A stretch of DNA of 35,473 nucleotides from a virus: positions 1 through 35,473 of IMG/VR virus record IMGVR_UViG_3300023174_000387, one strand, 5' to 3'. Of the stretch, positions 1-7,786 are shown piece after piece. Under the pieces are notes generated by a model, which made no database searches, was not told where the DNA came from, and worked only from the letters and a program-made list of their open reading frames with translations. Positions within the stretch are counted from its first letter, which is position 1. The number at the start of each line of letters is the position of its first letter. The translations under genes and the position numbers were made by a program.

Positions 1-1261
1 CGCGCATCGCGCCCCACATCTCAGCCCGCTTGTTGCCCCACATTACGGGGTTCTTGGCTTTCCAACCAAAGTTCACCCCCCGTACCTTATACCGTTGCTC
101 TGTTAACCTGTCAAGTATACCGTAGCCTAAACCGCCTTCGTCTATTACAGTTAGCGTTGGTTTGTATTCATCAATTGCGTCAATGACACGACCAACAATC
201 GACATCGTATCCTCGCCCTTGTACCGTTTGATTGCCACAATGTCACGCCCGCGTCTGACAACAATGACTGTGCTGTCCAGACCGCCGCGTGCCGGGTCGA
301 CCCCTATTACTATAGGCGCGGTCTCGTCTTTGTATTTAGGTCGCTTGAATGCGTCCTCAACAATCATCGGCGAGATGAACTGATCCTCACCCGCGCTTGG
401 GAAGTCGCCGTACACCTCAACGCGCGCCTGTATCGAATCTTCGCCGTACTCCGCGATGATCTGCTCGTAGACCTGCTTGTCCGTCCCCTCGACCGTGCGC
501 GCATCTATCTGGCGCGTCTGCCAGAAATCACGCTTACTATTAAACGTCTCAAAGAAGTACCCGCTGTTGCGTCGGGGGTTGCTAAACGCAAACCAGTAGC
601 GGTCCAGAATGTTCTCTGTAAAGAAGCCAGCCCCCACCGCCCAGATCGCGTCTGCAATACCTGACGCCTCGTCAAAGATCAACATCATCCCGTCGTGGTT
701 GTGTACCCCGGCGTAAGCGTCGGGGTTCTCTTCACTCCACAGCTTGCCTTCCGCTGCCCAGTAGCGCGTCCCTTTCTTTAAGTCGCGCTCAACCAGTTCG
801 GTCAGCCATTGCGCCGGTACGATCTTAGTTGCGCTGATCTCCCACCAATGGCTGTTGATAATCATCGCTTGCCACTTGGTCAGTTCGCCCCAAGTGACGG
901 ACCGTAACTGCGCTTCGCTGTTGGCGCTGACGATAACCGTAGAGCCGATCCGGGTAGTCAGCATCCACAAGATCAGCCAGCTAACCAGCGCGGACTTGCC
1001 AATACCCCGTCCGCTGGACACCGCTTCGCGCAGCGTGTCCATGTTGACCTTGCCTTCGTTGGTTTTGATGTGCTTACTAATGTCACGCAGTATCTCGCGT
1101 TGCCATTTGCGCGGCCCGCTGAACTTAGCTAACGGTGTGTTGGGCTGGCCCCAAGGAAACGCGAACAGTACAAACGCTTCAGGATCGTTTGCTATCGCGG
1201 GTGACCACAATCGCGTCATCAACGTCTGCTCTTCGGCTGATGTATAAATCGTTTTTTGCAT
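1..1261 (-). CDS. terL: Terminase large subunit (partial, C-terminus beyond the edge)
   Basis: Packaging motor ATPase and nuclease that drives DNA into the prohead through the portal. I translated 420 complete codons from ATG at 1261. The N-terminal ATPase has a Walker A-like GRGIGKSA at residues 84-91 and Walker B LIFDEAS at 194-200. The C-terminal RNase H-like nuclease begins at about 318, with GVDPARGG (D322) and VIDEGG (D374, E375). The third acidic residue of that nuclease is not reached before the edge. The start lies 83 bp inside terS; a second ATG at 1219 (Met15) is an alternative, and neither has a strong Shine-Dalgarno sequence. The right edge of the window (35406-35473) probably carries the C-terminal end. 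Family assignment is firm; the exact start is not. Confidence 0.93.
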   Translation of the reverse strand, partial: MQKTIYTSAEEQTLMTRLWSPAIANDPEAFVLFAFPWGQPNTPLAKFSGPRKWQREILRDISKHIKTNEGKVNMDTLREAVSSGRGIGKSALVSWLILWMLTTRIGSTVIVSANSEAQLRSVTWGELTKWQAMIINSHWWEISATKIVPAQWLTELVERDLKKGTRYWAAEGKLWSEENPDAYAGVHNHDGMMLIFDEASGIADAIWAVGAGFFTENILDRYWFAFSNPRRNSGYFFETFNSKRDFWQTRQIDARTVEGTDKQVYEQIIAEYGEDSIQARVEVYGDFPSAGEDQFISPMIVEDAFKRPKYKDETAPIVIGVDPARGGLDSTVIVVRRGRDIVAIKRYKGEDTMSIVGRVIDAIDEYKPTLTVIDEGGLGYGILDRLTEQRYKVRGVNFGWKAKNPVMWGNKRAEMWGAMR

Positions 1262-1640
1262 TCTCTAGCACTCTGGTTTGCGCGGCTTCTAGCGCCTGTG
1301 TGATGCTAATCCGTTGATACACATCAACACTAACTTCTTGTTTGGCCGTCCACTCGTGCCGGTGACGCAGGATCTCTAACGCGGCTTTGGCGTCGCCACC
1401 TAACGCCGCGCTATTAAGAACCTGCGAGATCTCACGTTCGTTATCCGCGCGGCCTTTTTGTTCTGCCATTTCCGCTAACGGATCTAGCTGACACAGTTGC
1501 CGGTACTCAGCGGGCAGCATACCAGCCGCCAGCGCCAGCGAGTCACCTTTCAGACCTAACTTCGCCGCGTCGTAGATGGACTGAAGACGCGCCTCTGTTG
1601 CCTGAACATTTCTGACAGTTAGTGGCAAAGATTTGAACAT
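1179..1640 (-). CDS. terS: Terminase small subunit
   Basis: Probable DNA-recognition subunit that selects the packaging start site and presents DNA to TerL. The protein is 153 aa. Residues around 20-50 (IYDAAKLGLKGDSLALAAGM) look like the helix-turn-helix region of phage small terminases, followed by a helical stretch suited to oligomerisation. I chose ATG 1640. A longer frame from 1790 would run through the A/T tract and the repeats and adds a low-complexity, non-conserved-looking N-terminus. The gene overlaps terL by 83 bp, and its upstream side abuts the repeat array, which TerS may bind. No clear ribosome-binding site is visible. Assignment rests on position and the HTH-like segment. Confidence 0.8.
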   Translation of the reverse strand: MFKSLPLTVRNVQATEARLQSIYDAAKLGLKGDSLALAAGMLPAEYRQLCQLDPLAEMAEQKGRADNEREISQVLNSAALGGDAKAALEILRHRHEWTAKQEVSVDVYQRISITQALEAAQTRVLENAKNDLYISRRADVDDAIVVTRDSKRS

Positions 1641-1676
1641 GATCTGATTGTAGGCAATGTAGGCAATGTTAGCAAT

Positions 1677-1710
1677 CAAAAAAAAATTCAAAAATTTTTT
1701 AAAAAATGTT
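1677..1710. other. A/T-rich tract, possible DNA-unwinding element
   Basis: About 34 bases are almost entirely A and T (runs of A, then ATT, then T6 and A6), between the variant repeats upstream of terS and a G/C-rich hairpin. A/T tracts beside iterons are typical of replication origins. It could also simply be an UP-like or spacer element of the terS leader. Confidence 0.45.
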
Positions 1711-2042
1711 TGCGGGGGGTGCGTTACCGTGACCGGTCGGGCCAAGGCCCTACCCGGCCCCCCTCGGCCAAACGGCAAAATTGTCAGCAATGGTCAGCAA
1801 TGAAATAAAACCCTTTTAATTGGTGTAACTATTGTCAGCAATTGTCAGCAATGGTTTTCAGTTCTGTTAAAAGCTATAACTAATGTCAGCAATGGTCAGC
1901 AATGGTTTTCAGTTCTTATAAAACGTGGAACTTGTGGTTTTTGGCAAAATGTCAGCAATGTCAGCAATGTCAGCAATGGAAAAAAATCGGGCTGGCTCAG
2001 AACGCGTGGGGGTTTGGCGGCCACTAGCGCGGCCAAATACCC

Positions 2043-2070
2043 TATATATAAAAATTGACTTTTGACTCAA
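2043..2070 (-). promoter_or_regulatory. Candidate leftward promoter for terS-terL and the late operon
   Basis: On the minus strand TTGAGT (2070-2065) is followed after 16 bases by TATATA (2048-2043), a sigma70-like pair. It lies where repeat orientation switches, about 400 bp upstream of terS. Distance and lack of experimental support keep confidence moderate. Confidence 0.4.
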
Positions 2071-2137
2071 ATATCAAAAAAGCATTGCTGACATTGACTA
2101 ACATCGCCCGAAACCCGCGCCAATATTGAAGTTGAGC

Positions 2138-2189
2138 GTAGGCAACGTTTTTTCTTCGGTTGCTGACATTCTGCTGACACGTTGCCTAC
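2138..2189. repeat. 11-bp perfect inverted repeat
   Basis: GTAGGCAACGT at 2138-2148 is exactly complementary to ACGTTGCCTAC at 2179-2189. The 30-base loop contains two reverse-orientation copies of the TTGCTGACA repeat. The arms resemble the TGTAGGCAATG variant upstream of terS, so this may be a paired protein-binding site rather than an RNA hairpin. Confidence 0.7.
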
Positions 2190-2223
2190 AACTGCTGGTT
2201 GTGAAAATCGTGTCAAACATCTA

Positions 2224-2253
2224 TTGACAAGGTACGATCACGCGCGGTAATCT
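2224..2253 (+). promoter_or_regulatory. Candidate rightward promoter for the 2310-3559 operon
   Basis: A perfect -35 box TTGACA lies at 2224-2229. The -10 element is weak: GGTAAT at 2246-2251 (16-bp spacer) or TAATCT at 2248-2253 (18-bp spacer). It is correctly placed about 60 bp upstream of ATG 2310, which has a good AAGGAAA ribosome-binding site at 2299-2305. Confidence 0.5.
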
Positions 2254-2309: not shown

Positions 2310-2918
2310 ATGAAGATCAACGTAAAACTCTCAGCGCTCCACGCTGTCGCGCAACTTGCGGCCGATAAAGAAATTCGCTACTACTTGGTGAGCGTTCGCG
2401 TCGAGGCCAACGCGGTCCAAACAATCTTGACTGCGACGAATGGAACTTGCGTCGGGATGTACCGCGTCGTCGACGTTGAGAACGAAGTCGACGACAAAAT
2501 TTCGTTTCTGTTGCCGCTCGACGTCATCAAAATGCTAAAGCCAGCAAAAAATGGTCTCGACGCGGCCGTGATCGAAACCAATGACGGCGCGACGGGTACG
2601 ATTAGCGTGATCGGCGGCGCGACTGTTTCATGGTCCGCCGTCGACGGGAAATTTCCCGACATCGCGCGCGTTATCCCTCAACAATGTAGCGGCGAAGTCG
2701 CTCAGTTCGATCCCGCGTTGATTGCCAAATTCGCCGCCGCGAATAAATGCTTGGGATCGAAAGCTAATCTTAAAATTTGGCACAATGGCGGATCCGCCGC
2801 GCCGATCACGCTCAACGATACGAAATTTTTCGGCGTACTGATGCCTTATCGTGATCCTGAGGGTTTGGCTAACTACGCCGCGCCTTCGTGGACGTTTGAC
2901 GCATTTTCGACACTTTGA
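2310..2918 (+). CDS. Sliding-clamp-like (DnaN-type) protein, short form
   Basis: 202 aa, first gene of the rightward early operon, with a strong Shine-Dalgarno sequence. Several segments resemble bacterial beta clamps: a TNGTCVGMYRV strand near residues 43-53 (compare the TDGHRL region), DGKFPDIARVIP near 113-124 (compare the D-x-x-FPDYRRVIP region), and FFGVLMPYR near 172-180 (compare the C-terminal VxMPMRL strand). A host clamp is about 366 aa with three domains; this protein has room for only two. It may act as a processivity factor for the phage polymerase or bind host clamp partners. The resemblance is motif-level only, so function is inferred. Confidence 0.55.
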   Translation: MKINVKLSALHAVAQLAADKEIRYYLVSVRVEANAVQTILTATNGTCVGMYRVVDVENEVDDKISFLLPLDVIKMLKPAKNGLDAAVIETNDGATGTISVIGGATVSWSAVDGKFPDIARVIPQQCSGEVAQFDPALIAKFAAANKCLGSKANLKIWHNGGSAAPITLNDTKFFGVLMPYRDPEGLANYAAPSWTFDAFSTL

Positions 2919-2932
2919 AGGGATAGCACACT

Positions 2933-3196
2933 ATGAGTAACTATAACGGTTGGACCAATTACGCAACTTGGCGCGTCAACCTTGAGATGTTTGACGGGTT
3001 TGATTTTAAGGAATATTGGCCGGAATCGGACAAATGGAACGCCTACGATCTTGGAGATTTTTTGAAGGGGTACGCCGAAGAGTTGATTGAATCTAGCTCT
3101 TCGGAAGGGTTAGCGCGCGACTATGCACTCGCGTTTATCTCCGACGTCAATTGGCACGAAATTGCCGCCCATTATCAGGATGAGGTCGAGGTATGA
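2933..3196 (+). CDS. Small acidic protein, N-YNGWTNYATW family
   Basis: 87 aa. The N-terminus NYNGWTNYATWRVNL matches a small family I recall from phages and plasmids with the signature NYNGWxNYxTW (DUF7249-like; name given from memory). The rest is acidic and aromatic-rich, with no membrane segment or catalytic motif. It starts 14 bp after the clamp-like gene and its stop overlaps the next start (ATGA). Its place in the early operon suggests host interaction or replication support; function unknown. Confidence 0.8.
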   Translation: MSNYNGWTNYATWRVNLEMFDGFDFKEYWPESDKWNAYDLGDFLKGYAEELIESSSSEGLARDYALAFISDVNWHEIAAHYQDEVEV

Positions 3197-3414
3197 AAAC
3201 CAAAGCACTATTTTATTTTGTAGATTCGCCGCAATTTCGTTCGATTGAATCGCGCGCATGGGCGGCGAATTATTTTCGCGCGCTACGCAACCGCGCGAAT
3301 GGTAACGCGCGCAGCTACACAGTCAAACGCGTGGCGTTTGGCCGTTATACGATCCAATTGAACTACACGGGTTCGCCTGTCGCAACGATCATCACCAACG
3401 GAGTCGATCAATGA
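3193..3414 (+). CDS. Small basic hypothetical protein
   Basis: 73 aa, rich in Arg and aromatic residues, no recognised domain. The sequence (alternating charged and aromatic residues, VKRVAFGRYTIQLNY near 44-58) suggests a compact beta or alpha/beta fold. It overlaps the previous gene by 4 bp and the next by 4 bp (ATGA at both ends), so it is translated as part of the same early operon. Function unknown. Confidence 0.72.
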   Translation: MKTKALFYFVDSPQFRSIESRAWAANYFRALRNRANGNARSYTVKRVAFGRYTIQLNYTGSPVATIITNGVDQ

Positions 3415-3598: not shown

Positions 3599-5878
3599 TT
3601 ACCGCGCCGCCGTGATCGGCGTGACGTTACCCATTATGGGTTCTGGCTCAACTGCGCGCCGAAGGTCCGACGCACTCATTCCAGCATTATCAGGCGCGCA
3701 GAATATGTGCTTGCGAGTAGGCAACGCGCGCGCCGATAAGCGCCCACAGTCGATCCATCCGGCTTCCTTAAGCGCGTGCAGTAGAGCGGCCTGATACAAC
3801 TTCACGCCAGCGGGAGCGAGCGCGCCTAAAGTGTCGCAAACGCCCTGAAACGGCGAACCGATCACGCCGCGCGCAAAAACTGAGCGGCGCGCGCGGATCG
3901 TCTCAAGTAACCAAGATTCCGCGTTTGACATCGAGTTCTCGACAAGGTTCGCCTTGAACTCTGTCATTGCGGGAGTAGCGGCCGGATTGAACCGGCTAAC
4001 GTCCCGCGCATAAAGCCACGAACCTACCGAATCAAACCCTCCCGCGTTGAACCAATCCCACATCGCGCGACCCGCCGCTTCACTCATACGCGGCGCATGG
4101 GACCAAACGCAGAACCAGCGGCGGTCCTGAGAACCTAATGAGATAGGCACTAAATCGTTCGTAAATGCGAGCACGAACCCGCGATTGAGCATCATATAGG
4201 GGTGCAATCCCTTTCGATTGATAGGTAGCACATCAGGCGGCGCAGCAATGATCGGCTTGAGTTTGTTCGCTAACTGTCGACGGTCCGCCGCATTTGGTTC
4301 TTTTAGCTCGTTGATCAATAGGATCTCCGATTCCAACTGATAGCCCCACTGGGACGATATAGAGTCATTGTCGACAATCCCGAGGTTGATCTTGCCGTCC
4401 CCACAGACGGCCCATATAAAGGGAGCCCACATAGTGTCCTTGCCGCAGCCCTCATCGCCCCCATGCAGAATGGCGTGGTTGATCTTGATCTCTGGGTGTT
4501 GGACTTTATAGGCCATTGCGTCCCATATATGCTCTAGTTCCGAACGCTCTGGGACCAAGCGCGCGCAATGGTCGAGCCATATAGATATATCGCCAACGGT
4601 CCCGCTCACTTGCGGCCGCGCATTGCGCCACCAGTTACCAAACACCTCGCCATTGCGCGACACAAGGACCGAATCGCCCGCCGCATAGGTAATCCCGTTT
4701 AGGATACGGCCCCCGCACGCCTGACGGTTCTCATCAAACCAAAGCGACGCATTGATCAAGCGCGGGCTTTTGCCCGTTTGGTGCATCGACGTACACATCA
4801 CGCCGCGATAGGTCGAATCGAACGCGCGGCGCGTGATCTCCCGACGCTCTATAAGATCGAAGTAAGCGTCATCGGACTGAATATAGGCGAACCGTTCGTG
4901 CCAGCCCGACCGCTCGACTCGACCTAGTTCGCGCGCCTCGACTTGGGCGATCACGGCCTTGGCGTCATCAGTAAACATCTCAGAGGGCGTTAGTTTGGAT
5001 AGCGCGCCATTCACAACCGACGCCAATAACTCATCACGTAGGCCATAGGTCCGCTTGGGGCCGCCTTGCTCTTCAACCCATGCAAGGAACCGCGCGGAGT
5101 CCCACTCGGTGCAATGCGAGTGCAGACAGCAATACGCCCGCGAAGCGGGCATATAGCGGCCTTCCGGGTTGCCGTCGGAGTGTTGCGCGCTATTAGGACA
5201 GATCACGCCCCACCAGCCCGCTGGGTTACCTTTTTGTGTAACTTCCTTGCGCTCGACAAGCCACGCTAGAACGTCATCCGACCCGTCATCTTTTAGGACG
5301 CCCGGACGGAATGTCGTTGTCTCGACCGCGCCGGGGACGACCGATAGGGCGTTACAGATCTCTTCAAGGCTGAACTCGCGCGACGGGTTGAACTCGATCA
5401 AGCGCGCAGCAAAACGGTCGCGTCCGGGCTTTAAATTGATCGAGCCGGGAATGCGGATATTACGAACTGGATTGATAGCGCCGGGGTCCGTATAACCCGC
5501 AGCGGCTATGGCCTTGATCGCCGCGCTATAGACGGACTTATGAGGCTGATCGTCTAGCCGGAAAACATAGCACCATTGAAAGTTATCTTTCGACGTTTCG
5601 ATAATCCACGTAGGTCTGATCGTAGGCGTTTTAGACTTCGTACCGACGTCATCTAGAACTAAGCACCATACGTTCTCGCAAAACGCAGCGCCCGCCGATA
5701 CCCGCTGGCCGTCGAACCGACTTTCGATGAAGCTGCCGATGTTGACGTACCACGCACCTTCACCGCGCGGCTTACGCGACGCGGGGTAGATGTAACTGTC
5801 CCCCTTAGGGACTTGTTTAGTGAAAAGTACAACCTCGCCCTCTGGCGCGAGGGCTATGATATGATTCACGAGTTCCAT
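3599..5878 (-). CDS. Primase-helicase (AEP-like primase plus D5/SF3-like ATPase)
   Basis: 759 aa replication enzyme expected to prime and unwind phage DNA. Residues 1-180 look like a RepB/AEP-type primase: VLDDVG at 74-79 (acidic pair D76/D77) and RIPGSINLKPGRD at 142-154. A cysteine/histidine segment at 227-256 (CPNSAQH ... CCLHSHC) could bind zinc. The C-terminal half is a P-loop helicase: Walker A GGDEGCGKDT at 473-482, Walker B ILLINEL at 519-525, and a sensor-like FVLAFTND. The arrangement matches phage DUF5906-type proteins. A strong GAGGAGAG ribosome-binding site precedes ATG 5878. It is the last gene of the leftward replication operon, after the polymerase. Confidence 0.88.
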   Translation of the reverse strand: MELVNHIIALAPEGEVVLFTKQVPKGDSYIYPASRKPRGEGAWYVNIGSFIESRFDGQRVSAGAAFCENVWCLVLDDVGTKSKTPTIRPTWIIETSKDNFQWCYVFRLDDQPHKSVYSAAIKAIAAAGYTDPGAINPVRNIRIPGSINLKPGRDRFAARLIEFNPSREFSLEEICNALSVVPGAVETTTFRPGVLKDDGSDDVLAWLVERKEVTQKGNPAGWWGVICPNSAQHSDGNPEGRYMPASRAYCCLHSHCTEWDSARFLAWVEEQGGPKRTYGLRDELLASVVNGALSKLTPSEMFTDDAKAVIAQVEARELGRVERSGWHERFAYIQSDDAYFDLIERREITRRAFDSTYRGVMCTSMHQTGKSPRLINASLWFDENRQACGGRILNGITYAAGDSVLVSRNGEVFGNWWRNARPQVSGTVGDISIWLDHCARLVPERSELEHIWDAMAYKVQHPEIKINHAILHGGDEGCGKDTMWAPFIWAVCGDGKINLGIVDNDSISSQWGYQLESEILLINELKEPNAADRRQLANKLKPIIAAPPDVLPINRKGLHPYMMLNRGFVLAFTNDLVPISLGSQDRRWFCVWSHAPRMSEAAGRAMWDWFNAGGFDSVGSWLYARDVSRFNPAATPAMTEFKANLVENSMSNAESWLLETIRARRSVFARGVIGSPFQGVCDTLGALAPAGVKLYQAALLHALKEAGWIDCGRLSARALPTRKHIFCAPDNAGMSASDLRRAVEPEPIMGNVTPITAAR

Positions 5879-5929: not shown

Positions 5930-7786
5930 CTATTTGCCGTAACGGGTCATCTGCTTAACTTCTGCCTTTAGGGGCAGACCCGCCGCCCACGGCGGCGACA
6001 TACACATGACGCGGCGTAATACGTCGGGGTCACCGTCCTCAAGGACGATCTCGTCGTGTACGTGAAGCACTACGTTATCTAACTGGCGTAGCGCGTGGCG
6101 CAGCACATCATTGGCGACTGCTTGCGTAATGTTCTCGCAAGCCAGTCCTTTCCATAATCGGGCGCGCGGCCATTCCTTGGCGTCAGCGGCGGGCTTCCAA
6201 GCGGCTTTACAGTATGAAATGCCATCGTCTTCCAATTTGGCGAACGGGTAACACAGAACGCGGCCCGAAGGAAGAATGTACCAGAGATGCTGCCGGTCGA
6301 ACAGATAAGTCACCCGCCCCGCGCTGAACTCCGCGTTAGGCGTGTGCATCGCTGACGTATAGGCCCGCTCAAGCTCCGACCAGAACCGCACGGCCCATTG
6401 ATTGCTGCGCCGCCAAGCGTCTACCATGCGCCGCGCGTCGGCCTCTGGCAGATGGATACCATAGGCGCGCCCCATAGCGGCGAACGCGCCTACGCCCCCG
6501 GCGTACCCGCACGATAGCTCCTGAACCTTGCCGATCTGACGCTGATCGTCCGTCACTTGATCGACTGAGCACCCGAACGTAGCGGCGGCGTTGATCTTGT
6601 AGATGTCTTGATCGAACTGCTTGAGCTTCTCGTCGCCCATGCCCGACAGCCACGGGTTGACGCGCGCCTCGATAGCTGACCAGTCAGCGACTACGAAATT
6701 ACCAATGAGCGCGGGTCGAAGCATCCCTTTGAGCACATCTGTAACTCGTCTTCCGTGAAGAGGGATAATTGCTCGACCGCATACCATGTCGTCTCGGACG
6801 GCGGCAGGGTCTTTGGCAGTTTTTCTCGTAAAGTTGTGAACTTGCGCGCCGTAACTTGAGGCACGCCCCGTCGCAGATCCTCCAGCAAAAACAAATGCGC
6901 CTCGAACTCGGTCATCTTCAACATCGGCTAACTCCTGTAGACGTTTGAACTTTGCAATCGAGGACGCCCATAAATCGTCGGCGCATTGCACGACTTCACG
7001 CACATCCGAGTCTAGGTCATCACACGCTAACAGATTAGCGCGAACGGCCTTGTCGATGCTGTACTTCTCACCGACCCACATGAGTTTCTTTTGCTCATCC
7101 GTGACGCGCGCCAGCACCCACTCGCGCGTCCGTGGCGAGCGCACGGCTAGGCCGCCCGTGATCTCAGTTACGATACTTTGTATCTCAGCTAGTTCGGCGT
7201 CAGCGTAGCGAATAGCGGCCTTGCATAGTGCAACGTCCACCTTCACGCCTCGGTCGTTTATGCGCTCGTTTACGTGGTAATCAAGTAGTTCCTCATCCGA
7301 CAGTTGACGCAGGGCGAGGCTCACGGCGCGCATAGCACGCACGTCCTGCTCGCAGTATTCAATCAGTTCGGGAATCAGCTTGTCATTGTAAGGCGGCACG
7401 CAGCATTGCCGCACAAGGTAGTCGCCCCGGCGGTCTTTCTTCATGTCAGCGCCCGCAAAGCGACCGACATCCTCAAGCGACCCCGGCGCGCAGTTGGCGC
7501 GGGCTTGTGTTGCGGTGCAATAGAACTGCTCAAGATCGAAGTTGATCTGTAGCACGTACCAGAAGATCAGACGCTCAAACGCGGCGTTATGCGCGCGGAT
7601 CTGACCTTTATGATTTAACACATCAGACGGAAATGTTAAGTCTGGGGTCCAAGTTTTAACAGGTCCATCGTCGAAAGCGTAGGACATACAGATGACTTCA
7701 GTTTCCAAGTCCTGCGCGTAGTTATAGACACCCGCGACCCGAAGGTCGCAGGTGCTACGGGTTTCAAAGTCAACCCAAAGGATCAC
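5930..7786 (-). CDS. Family A DNA polymerase with 3'-5' exonuclease
   Basis: 618 aa replicative polymerase. The exonuclease domain occupies about residues 1-160: D6 and E8 in VDFETRS, N67 in RAHNAAFE, and Y144/D148 in YCEQD. The polymerase has motif A DWSAIEAR at 368-375, motif B from R416 through K420 to Y428 (RQIGKVQELSCGYAG), and motif C HVHDEIV at 575-581 with D578/E579. All catalytic acids are present. It lacks the 5' nuclease domain of cellular Pol I, as usual for phage enzymes. It starts at GTG 7786, directly after the TAA of the upstream gene. The glycine usual after the motif B tyrosine is alanine here. Confidence 0.95.
   Translation of the reverse strand: MILWVDFETRSTCDLRVAGVYNYAQDLETEVICMSYAFDDGPVKTWTPDLTFPSDVLNHKGQIRAHNAAFERLIFWYVLQINFDLEQFYCTATQARANCAPGSLEDVGRFAGADMKKDRRGDYLVRQCCVPPYNDKLIPELIEYCEQDVRAMRAVSLALRQLSDEELLDYHVNERINDRGVKVDVALCKAAIRYADAELAEIQSIVTEITGGLAVRSPRTREWVLARVTDEQKKLMWVGEKYSIDKAVRANLLACDDLDSDVREVVQCADDLWASSIAKFKRLQELADVEDDRVRGAFVFAGGSATGRASSYGAQVHNFTRKTAKDPAAVRDDMVCGRAIIPLHGRRVTDVLKGMLRPALIGNFVVADWSAIEARVNPWLSGMGDEKLKQFDQDIYKINAAATFGCSVDQVTDDQRQIGKVQELSCGYAGGVGAFAAMGRAYGIHLPEADARRMVDAWRRSNQWAVRFWSELERAYTSAMHTPNAEFSAGRVTYLFDRQHLWYILPSGRVLCYPFAKLEDDGISYCKAAWKPAADAKEWPRARLWKGLACENITQAVANDVLRHALRQLDNVVLHVHDEIVLEDGDPDVLRRVMCMSPPWAAGLPLKAEVKQMTRYGK

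Follow-up and report, generated by a model that had tools for sequence, protein, structure and literature searches.

A repeat array upstream of terS is very probably the replication origin of a freshwater phage, and comparison of relatives indicates that it is read by the C-terminal domain of the phage primase-helicase

The repeat array between terS and the clamp gene

We analysed a viral DNA of 35,473 nucleotides (IMG/VR record IMGVR_UViG_3300023174_000387, hereafter the window, which means the whole stretch) and studied an array of short repeats, or iterons, that lies between terS and a gene for a sliding-clamp-like protein. The window encodes a terminase-portal module, a primase-helicase, a family A DNA polymerase, an exonuclease, and a SNF2-type helicase. 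The terL frame runs off the left end of the record, and a small part of the genome may be missing from it.

The repeat unit is the 9-bp TGTnRGCAA, and 17 copies, 13 of them exact, are present at 1649-2190. With up to one mismatch, 19 matches were found in 1600-2230, while 500 dinucleotide shuffles of the same stretch averaged 2.0 matches and never gave more than 7. Two marginal matches, at 1609 and 1939, were left out of the 17 units. The density of the unit was 30 per kb within the array versus 2.3 outside. The sequence TGTCAGCAATG occurs seven times in exact form in the 35,473-base record, always within the array (six forward and one reverse), and the backward control gave none. A preliminary description of this DNA had counted about fifteen copies of two 11-mers. 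The array it reported is real, but only nine of those copies are exact and the remainder are variants. The elements of the array are as follows.

1649-1677, plus strand: TerS-proximal iteron triplet in 9-bp phase (TGTAGGCAA TGTAGGCAA TGTTAGCAA), units at 1649, 1658, and 1667
1678-1766: block adjoining terS that is independent of the repeat class (A/T tract, then GTGACCGGTCGGGCCAAGGCCCTACCCGGCCCCC)
1782-1904, plus strand: three iteron pairs, units at 1782/1792, 1833/1843, and 1884/1894
1950-1978, plus strand: iteron triplet in 9-bp phase (TGTCAGCAATGTCAGCAATGTCAGCAATG), units at 1950, 1959, and 1968
2040-2080: A/T-rich segment (CCTATATATAAAAATTGACTTTT...) between the left and right iteron sets
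2083-2190, mostly minus strand: right iteron set, mostly inverted, units at 2085, 2160, 2171, and 2182 on the minus strand and at 2137 on the plus strand
2224-2253, plus strand: weak promoter-like site of the clamp operon, read by eye (TTGACA at 2224-2229, 18 bp, TAATCT at 2248-2253)

The units are 9 bp apart in both triplets and 10 bp apart in the three pairs, and the pairs follow each other at 51 bp. The tandem 9-bp phase described earlier is thus seen in the two triplets. The earlier orientation, direct on the left and reversed on the right, holds in general, except that the unit at 2137 is on the plus strand. The right set also contains a degenerate copy at about 2093-2104. No second cluster of TGTnRGCAA was found in the window, where exact units outside the array are single and scattered. 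The A/T tract that had been given as 34 bases exists at about 1678-1707 and is interrupted by one C. Between the two iteron sets, the 40 bp from 2041 are 80% A/T. The two sets (1649-1978 and 2083-2190) around 2040-2080 fit the origin architecture in which iterons flank an A/T-rich region. Outward-facing promoters had also been proposed. The rightward one can be read by eye and its TTGACA is conserved in an alignment of relatives, but the consensus promoter scan did not call it and listed only two weak leftward sites, versus 1.1 expected.

Relatives carry different repeats at the same place

Viral contigs were scanned with the clamp, TerS, and helicase, which gave several hundred loci, and more than 100 relatives were compared. 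The helicase scan reported 567 relatives, with 80 loci among the matches listed. The contigs are metagenomic. Every relative examined has a repeat array at this place upstream of terS, most frequently with 9-bp spacing, and no relative with the same terS and replication genes was seen to lack repeats here. The repeat sequence varies by lineage. The repeat classes are TGTnRGCAA (class A, the window), TGTRCCC/TGTGAGCG (B), TGTTGGCTA (C), ATGGGTCA (D), GTGGGGTA (E), TGTGGACAA (G), TTTGGGTCA (I), TTGGGGTA (J), and TAGTCA types, about a dozen in all. The contingency table of these classes is descriptive, as the motif expressions were set after part of the same loci had been viewed.

Phages of classes A and B are otherwise nearly the same (TerL 99%, TerS 150-151/153, polymerase 97%, and PrimPol part of the primase-helicase 94-95% identical). 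Between the window and the contigs L029/L047, TerS differs at 2-3 of 153 residues and the repeats are entirely different. The same exchange was found in a second lineage, between L101 (class D, ATGGGTCA) and L099/L103 (class E, GTGGGGTA), with TerS identical at 142-144 of 144 residues, the PrimPol part 90-100% identical over most blocks, and the helicase half 40-86% identical. For L101 and L103, all 144 aligned TerS residues are identical and the repeats are entirely different.

In the alignment of classes A and B, the units of the right set stand at matching positions and differ in sequence, class B having TGTGGACAC, ACGCTCACA, and similar units there. The TerS-proximal triplet is not present in the class-B relatives, which have ..TGT-AACAAAAA.. 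instead. Positions 1678-1766 are kept between the two classes, both in the alignment and in pairwise BLAST, which extends to about 1766. This places the block outside the iteron specificity and, as a candidate for a packaging or terS-control element, it is preferable to the iterons. The A/T-rich segment at 2040-2080 is also conserved across the repeat classes. It is a candidate melting site and may matter more than the A/T tract at 1678-1707.

Several other features were seen at these loci. Many relatives (L039, L047, L066, L090, L101) have extra short GC-rich tandem repeats between the conserved block and the iterons; their units span about 6-13 bp (e.g., CCTGCCCG in L090 and GTGCGCCCCCG in L039). 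The distant relative MW202483 (L110, 8024-8415; TerS 55%), in which portal and terL are named, has a VirE-type helicase and different repeats, GTTTACRTAAAC, upstream of terS, and a homing endonuclease gene separates these repeats from terS. Sample 3300027971 yielded class A L049 alongside class B L038, L041, and L042, and sample 3300043786 yielded class D L114 alongside class E L215.

The repeats follow the C-terminal half of the primase-helicase

The genes and protein parts that were considered as readers of the array are listed below.

1179-1640, minus strand: terS, 153 aa, not the array reader
2310-2918, plus strand: sliding-clamp-like protein (Pfam DNA_pol3_beta_2, below cut-off), dispensable for the array class
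3599-5878, minus strand: primase-helicase, 759 aa, predicted reader and initiator (Pfam DUF5906 at residues 471-587, weak RepB_primase)
4949-5878, minus strand: N-terminal PrimPol part of the primase-helicase, aa 1-310
3602-4948, minus strand: helicase half and C-terminal domain, aa 311-759, which tracks the repeat class
3650-3925, minus strand: predicted winged helix, aa 652-743, mean pLDDT 82

We compared 39 protein segments of the window with two genomes each of classes A and B, and with a further, more distant genome of class B. Of these segments, the clamp and the helicase half alone followed the repeat class. The clamp is 67-68% identical between classes A and B. The helicase half is 66-67% identical between these classes and 98-99% identical within class A. 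Within the primase-helicase, identity between repeat classes falls sharply at about residue 310, and PrimPol residues 40-310 are 95-100% identical over most of their length between classes A and B. The PrimPol part was rejected as the specificity determinant because it is near-identical in the two classes. TerS was excluded as the reader because near-identical phages, with identical or near-identical TerS, carry entirely different repeats. The clamp was ruled out because contigs L035 and L058, in which no clamp homolog was detected, keep class-A repeats. The small ORFs between the array and the helicase gene were rejected because they are not common to class-A phages.

The association was also examined with unsupervised motifs in 83 non-redundant loci. 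In partial Mantel tests, the repeats followed the C-terminus given PrimPol (rho 0.34, p<=0.003); they followed neither PrimPol given the C-terminus (-0.11) nor TerL (0.03, p 0.2). Per-locus motif finding was noisy for class B and wherever loci contain short GC-rich tandem repeats, and the correlations are therefore modest.

The preliminary description stated that no classical Rep gene is visible. This is literally right, since no classical iteron-plasmid Rep (RepA/RepE-type) family was matched among the proteins scanned, but the primase-helicase at 3599-5878 is a candidate initiator. Its combination of PrimPol and a DUF5906-type, putatively hexameric helicase is that of NrS-1-like primase-polymerases, as seen from Pfam and from the fold match to 6k9c. 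The best match of the predicted structure was the C-terminal region of NrS-1 (6k9c, E 2.8e-17), followed by ASFV PrimPol, mpox E5, and the SaPI5 primase-helicase/PriRep1. Confidence in the full-length model was moderate (pTM 0.42). The model of the last 120 residues has the order helix, strand, helix, helix, strand, wing, strand. The winged-helix topology is thus predicted, its wing residues co-vary with the repeats, and binding of the iterons by this domain is likewise a prediction. Comparison with the P4 origin-binding domain by hhalign gave no homology (probability 0.1%), with a shallow P4 alignment (rows 91-93% identical).

The clamp-like protein has been given more than one name. PHROGs labels its family, and BcepC6B gp31, as a RusA-like Holliday junction resolvase, while Pfam gives a beta-clamp central domain and another PHROG a processivity factor. 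The RusA label looks wrong. BcepC6B was the only phage record matching the clamp.

Wing residues predict the repeat sequence

The wing of the window protein carries Ser715 and Pro720. Among 445 aligned columns of the helicase half, the best predictors of GTGGAC repeats were positions 720 (Asp) and 715 (Lys), both in the wing, and the best predictor of TAGTCA repeats was position 715 (Met). The rule from the earlier loci, that Lys715 goes with GTGGAC repeats, held in 40 of 40 further contigs, which are other contigs but still relatives. All 22 loci with Lys715 had at least three GTGGAC in 700 bp, and all 18 others had at most two. The rule for TAGTCA and Met715 was noticed within this later set itself and is not a held-out result. 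In a helicase-domain tree built without the winged helix, Lys715 changes many times. Among independent pairs, Lys715 and the GTGGAC array change together in 7.3 of 9 and never in opposite ways (median p 0.016). Where Leu replaces Arg713 (GLLKSR), the repeats are TGTGGGTC although Lys715 is present, and therefore the specificity code involves more than one residue.

A probable origin and the alternatives

The array is very probably the place where this freshwater phage starts DNA copying, and the comparison of its relatives indicates that the reader is the C-terminal domain of its own primase-helicase. We consider it likely that the array is the iteron part of an origin, read by the winged helix of a primase-helicase that acts as a self-loading initiator. 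The iteron origin raised in the preliminary description is supported by the arrays at the same place in relatives and by their co-variation with the helicase C-terminus, specifically the wing. In the proposed mechanism, which follows the analogy of P4 alpha, SaPI Rep, and Cch2, the C-terminal winged helix would bind the 9-bp units, and the variable bases would be read by residues of the wing near 715-720. The direct left set and the inverted right set would load helicase rings around 2040-2080, this A/T-rich segment would melt, and the SF3-like helicase would unwind the DNA. The attached PrimPol domain would prime, and the family A polymerase, clamp-like protein, and SSB-like protein of the phage might then take over. 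Physical binding, melting, ring loading, and origin function are all proposed on the basis of these comparisons.

Several observations weigh against this proposal. In contig L090, an E-type helicase with the same protein sequence as that of L103 is combined with a D-type array matching that of L101, and the change-over falls inside the clamp gene (L090:4458-5048). In the clamp scan, all other loci in which both parts are readable were concordant (14 of class E and 4 of class D), and L090 could be a chimeric assembly or a genuine recombinant. The small classes of L082, L085, L167, and L172/L181 fit less cleanly. When the winged helix was submitted by itself to a fold search, nothing in the PDB matched significantly (best E 0.19). 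The GC skew, which had been suggested as a check, showed no origin signature in the window; it follows gene direction and is uninformative. Co-transfer by physical linkage could yield part of the association.

The last point can be extended to the explanation that the helicase half, clamp, and array move as a single block of recombination although the helicase does not read the repeats. The array is about 1.4 kb from the 3' end of the primase-helicase gene and the exchange boundaries enclose both. We regard this as very unlikely to be the whole explanation, since the intervening genes are gained, lost, and replaced without breaking the match between helicase type and repeat class, the independent Lys715 changes co-occur with GTGGAC arrays, and the best of the 445 columns are wing residues and not arbitrary linked positions. 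A packaging (pac) site read by TerS was suggested by the preliminary description. The array is directly upstream of terS, and the class-independent block at 1678-1766 beside terS could be a packaging or control element. For the repeats themselves, natural swaps already refute this, as TerS is nearly or fully unchanged (150-151/153 for the window versus L029/L047, 144/144 for L101 versus L103) with wholly different repeats, and TerL has no further explanatory value after controlling for the helicase C-terminus. Unless TerS acts without sequence specificity, a pac site is extremely unlikely.

Initiator autoregulation at iterons is common in known systems. The array might be an operator that controls transcription of the terS and clamp operons, which are divergent, and to which a phage regulator or the initiator itself binds, without origin function. 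Promoter-like sites do adjoin the iterons or overlap with them on either side (1647-1675, minus strand; 2224, plus strand). We consider this unlikely. A scan of 18 small or early proteins gave no HTH regulator family; of all proteins compared, the helicase half and the clamp alone co-vary with the array; and the two sets around an A/T-rich segment have the architecture of an origin. A regulatory role of the initiator would add to an origin role and not replace it. The array might also be a copy-number or other cis-acting control region like crr of P4, bound by the same initiator, with the true start elsewhere. P4 has ori and crr about 4.7 kb apart with type-1 repeats in both, and co-variation does not tell ori from crr. 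With no second cluster of units in the window, which may lack a small part of the genome, we think there is only a slim chance of such an arrangement, and an origin at the array remains the preferred explanation.

Comparison with known systems

We suggest a mode of action like that of P4 alpha or PICI/SaPI Rep as the best explanation, and do not claim homology to P4 alpha. The type-1 repeats of P4, TGTTCACC, are grouped into pairs and triplets whose members lie 9-11 bp apart, and its origin-binding domain is a winged helix (cited in PMC10516667). Like P4 alpha, the protein of the window has primase and helicase in one chain with a C-terminal origin-binding domain, which is predicted here. Its iterons are also short, start with TGT, are 9-11 bp apart, and form pairs and triplets in both orientations. 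Unlike P4, it has a PrimPol-like primase with a DUF5906 helicase, a repeat sequence that differs from TGTTCACC beyond the initial TGT, one iteron region instead of ori plus crr, and no detectable homology to the P4 origin-binding domain.

The C-terminal domain of SaPI Rep recognises an iteron origin downstream of its own gene (PMC7581432), and every PICI origin has an A/T-rich region with an iteron set on either side (PMC6092414). The window shares with PICI/SaPI Pri-Rep and SCCmec Cch2 an initiator helicase, predicted in its case, with iterons on the 3' side of its gene, and with PICIs the two iteron sets around an A/T-rich region and the fold match to the SaPI5 primase-helicase. Whereas the PICI/SaPI origin is immediately 3' of the gene, the array here is about 1.4 kb off, with the divergent clamp operon (2310-3414) between. 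In contrast to a PICI, which is a helper-dependent island, the phage has its own terL, portal-like and other structural genes, polymerase, and clamp.

The NrS-1 primase-polymerase has the same PrimPol-helicase order, and its C-terminal region was the best structural match (6k9c). The 8-nt sequence recognised by NrS-1 is present only twice in its genome (PMC7102993) and guides the synthesis of primers on the template, while the window has a tandem iteron array. The window also differs from NrS-1 in having a separate family A polymerase, and the primase-helicase is therefore unlikely to be the main replicative polymerase. The position of this polymerase is as follows.

5930-7786: family A polymerase (PHROG 17, E 1.4e-82)

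The match to the SNF2-type helicase shows one or two in-frame TAA codons in G001, G007, and G008 (behind L047, L054, and L056). These may be real or an effect of the alignment ends.

In the Vibrio satellite PLE, cognate pairs of RepA_N and ori modules are required for replication, as found by experiment (PMC8263062), and no helicase or primase activity is predicted for its RepA_N initiator (PMC7145576). The PLE iterons are semi-palindromes of about 30 bp with two known module types, unlike the many repeat classes here. Thus, initiator helicases that read iterons are already known, and so is the exchange of an initiator DNA-binding domain together with the origin in the PLE satellites (PMC8263062). 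As far as we searched, what is new here is the group of phages, the position of the exchange boundary between PrimPol and helicase, how many repeat classes exist, and the prediction of repeat bases from wing residues. A literature search for such an origin in freshwater podoviruses gave no description.

The patterns among relatives indicate that these phages recurrently swap helicase half, winged helix, and iterons as a matched cassette, which sets them apart from P4 alpha and PICI/SaPI Rep. We tentatively suggest that, in a large and common freshwater phage group, an origin-specificity cassette has been repeatedly replaced under selection, with specificity set largely by one or two wing residues in a readable protein-to-iteron code. 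Different repeat types were found in the same samples (e.g., 3300027971). If this is true, replacement of the cassette would perhaps avoid cross-recognition by co-infecting relatives, satellites, or origin-directed nucleases. The natural co-variation answers which protein reads the array, and it points to a probable origin and initiator for widespread uncultured phages. It extends the initiator-origin module exchange of Vibrio satellites (PMC8263062) to an apparently complete phage, and provides a rich natural data set on how an initiator winged helix changes its specificity together with 10-20 dispersed sites.
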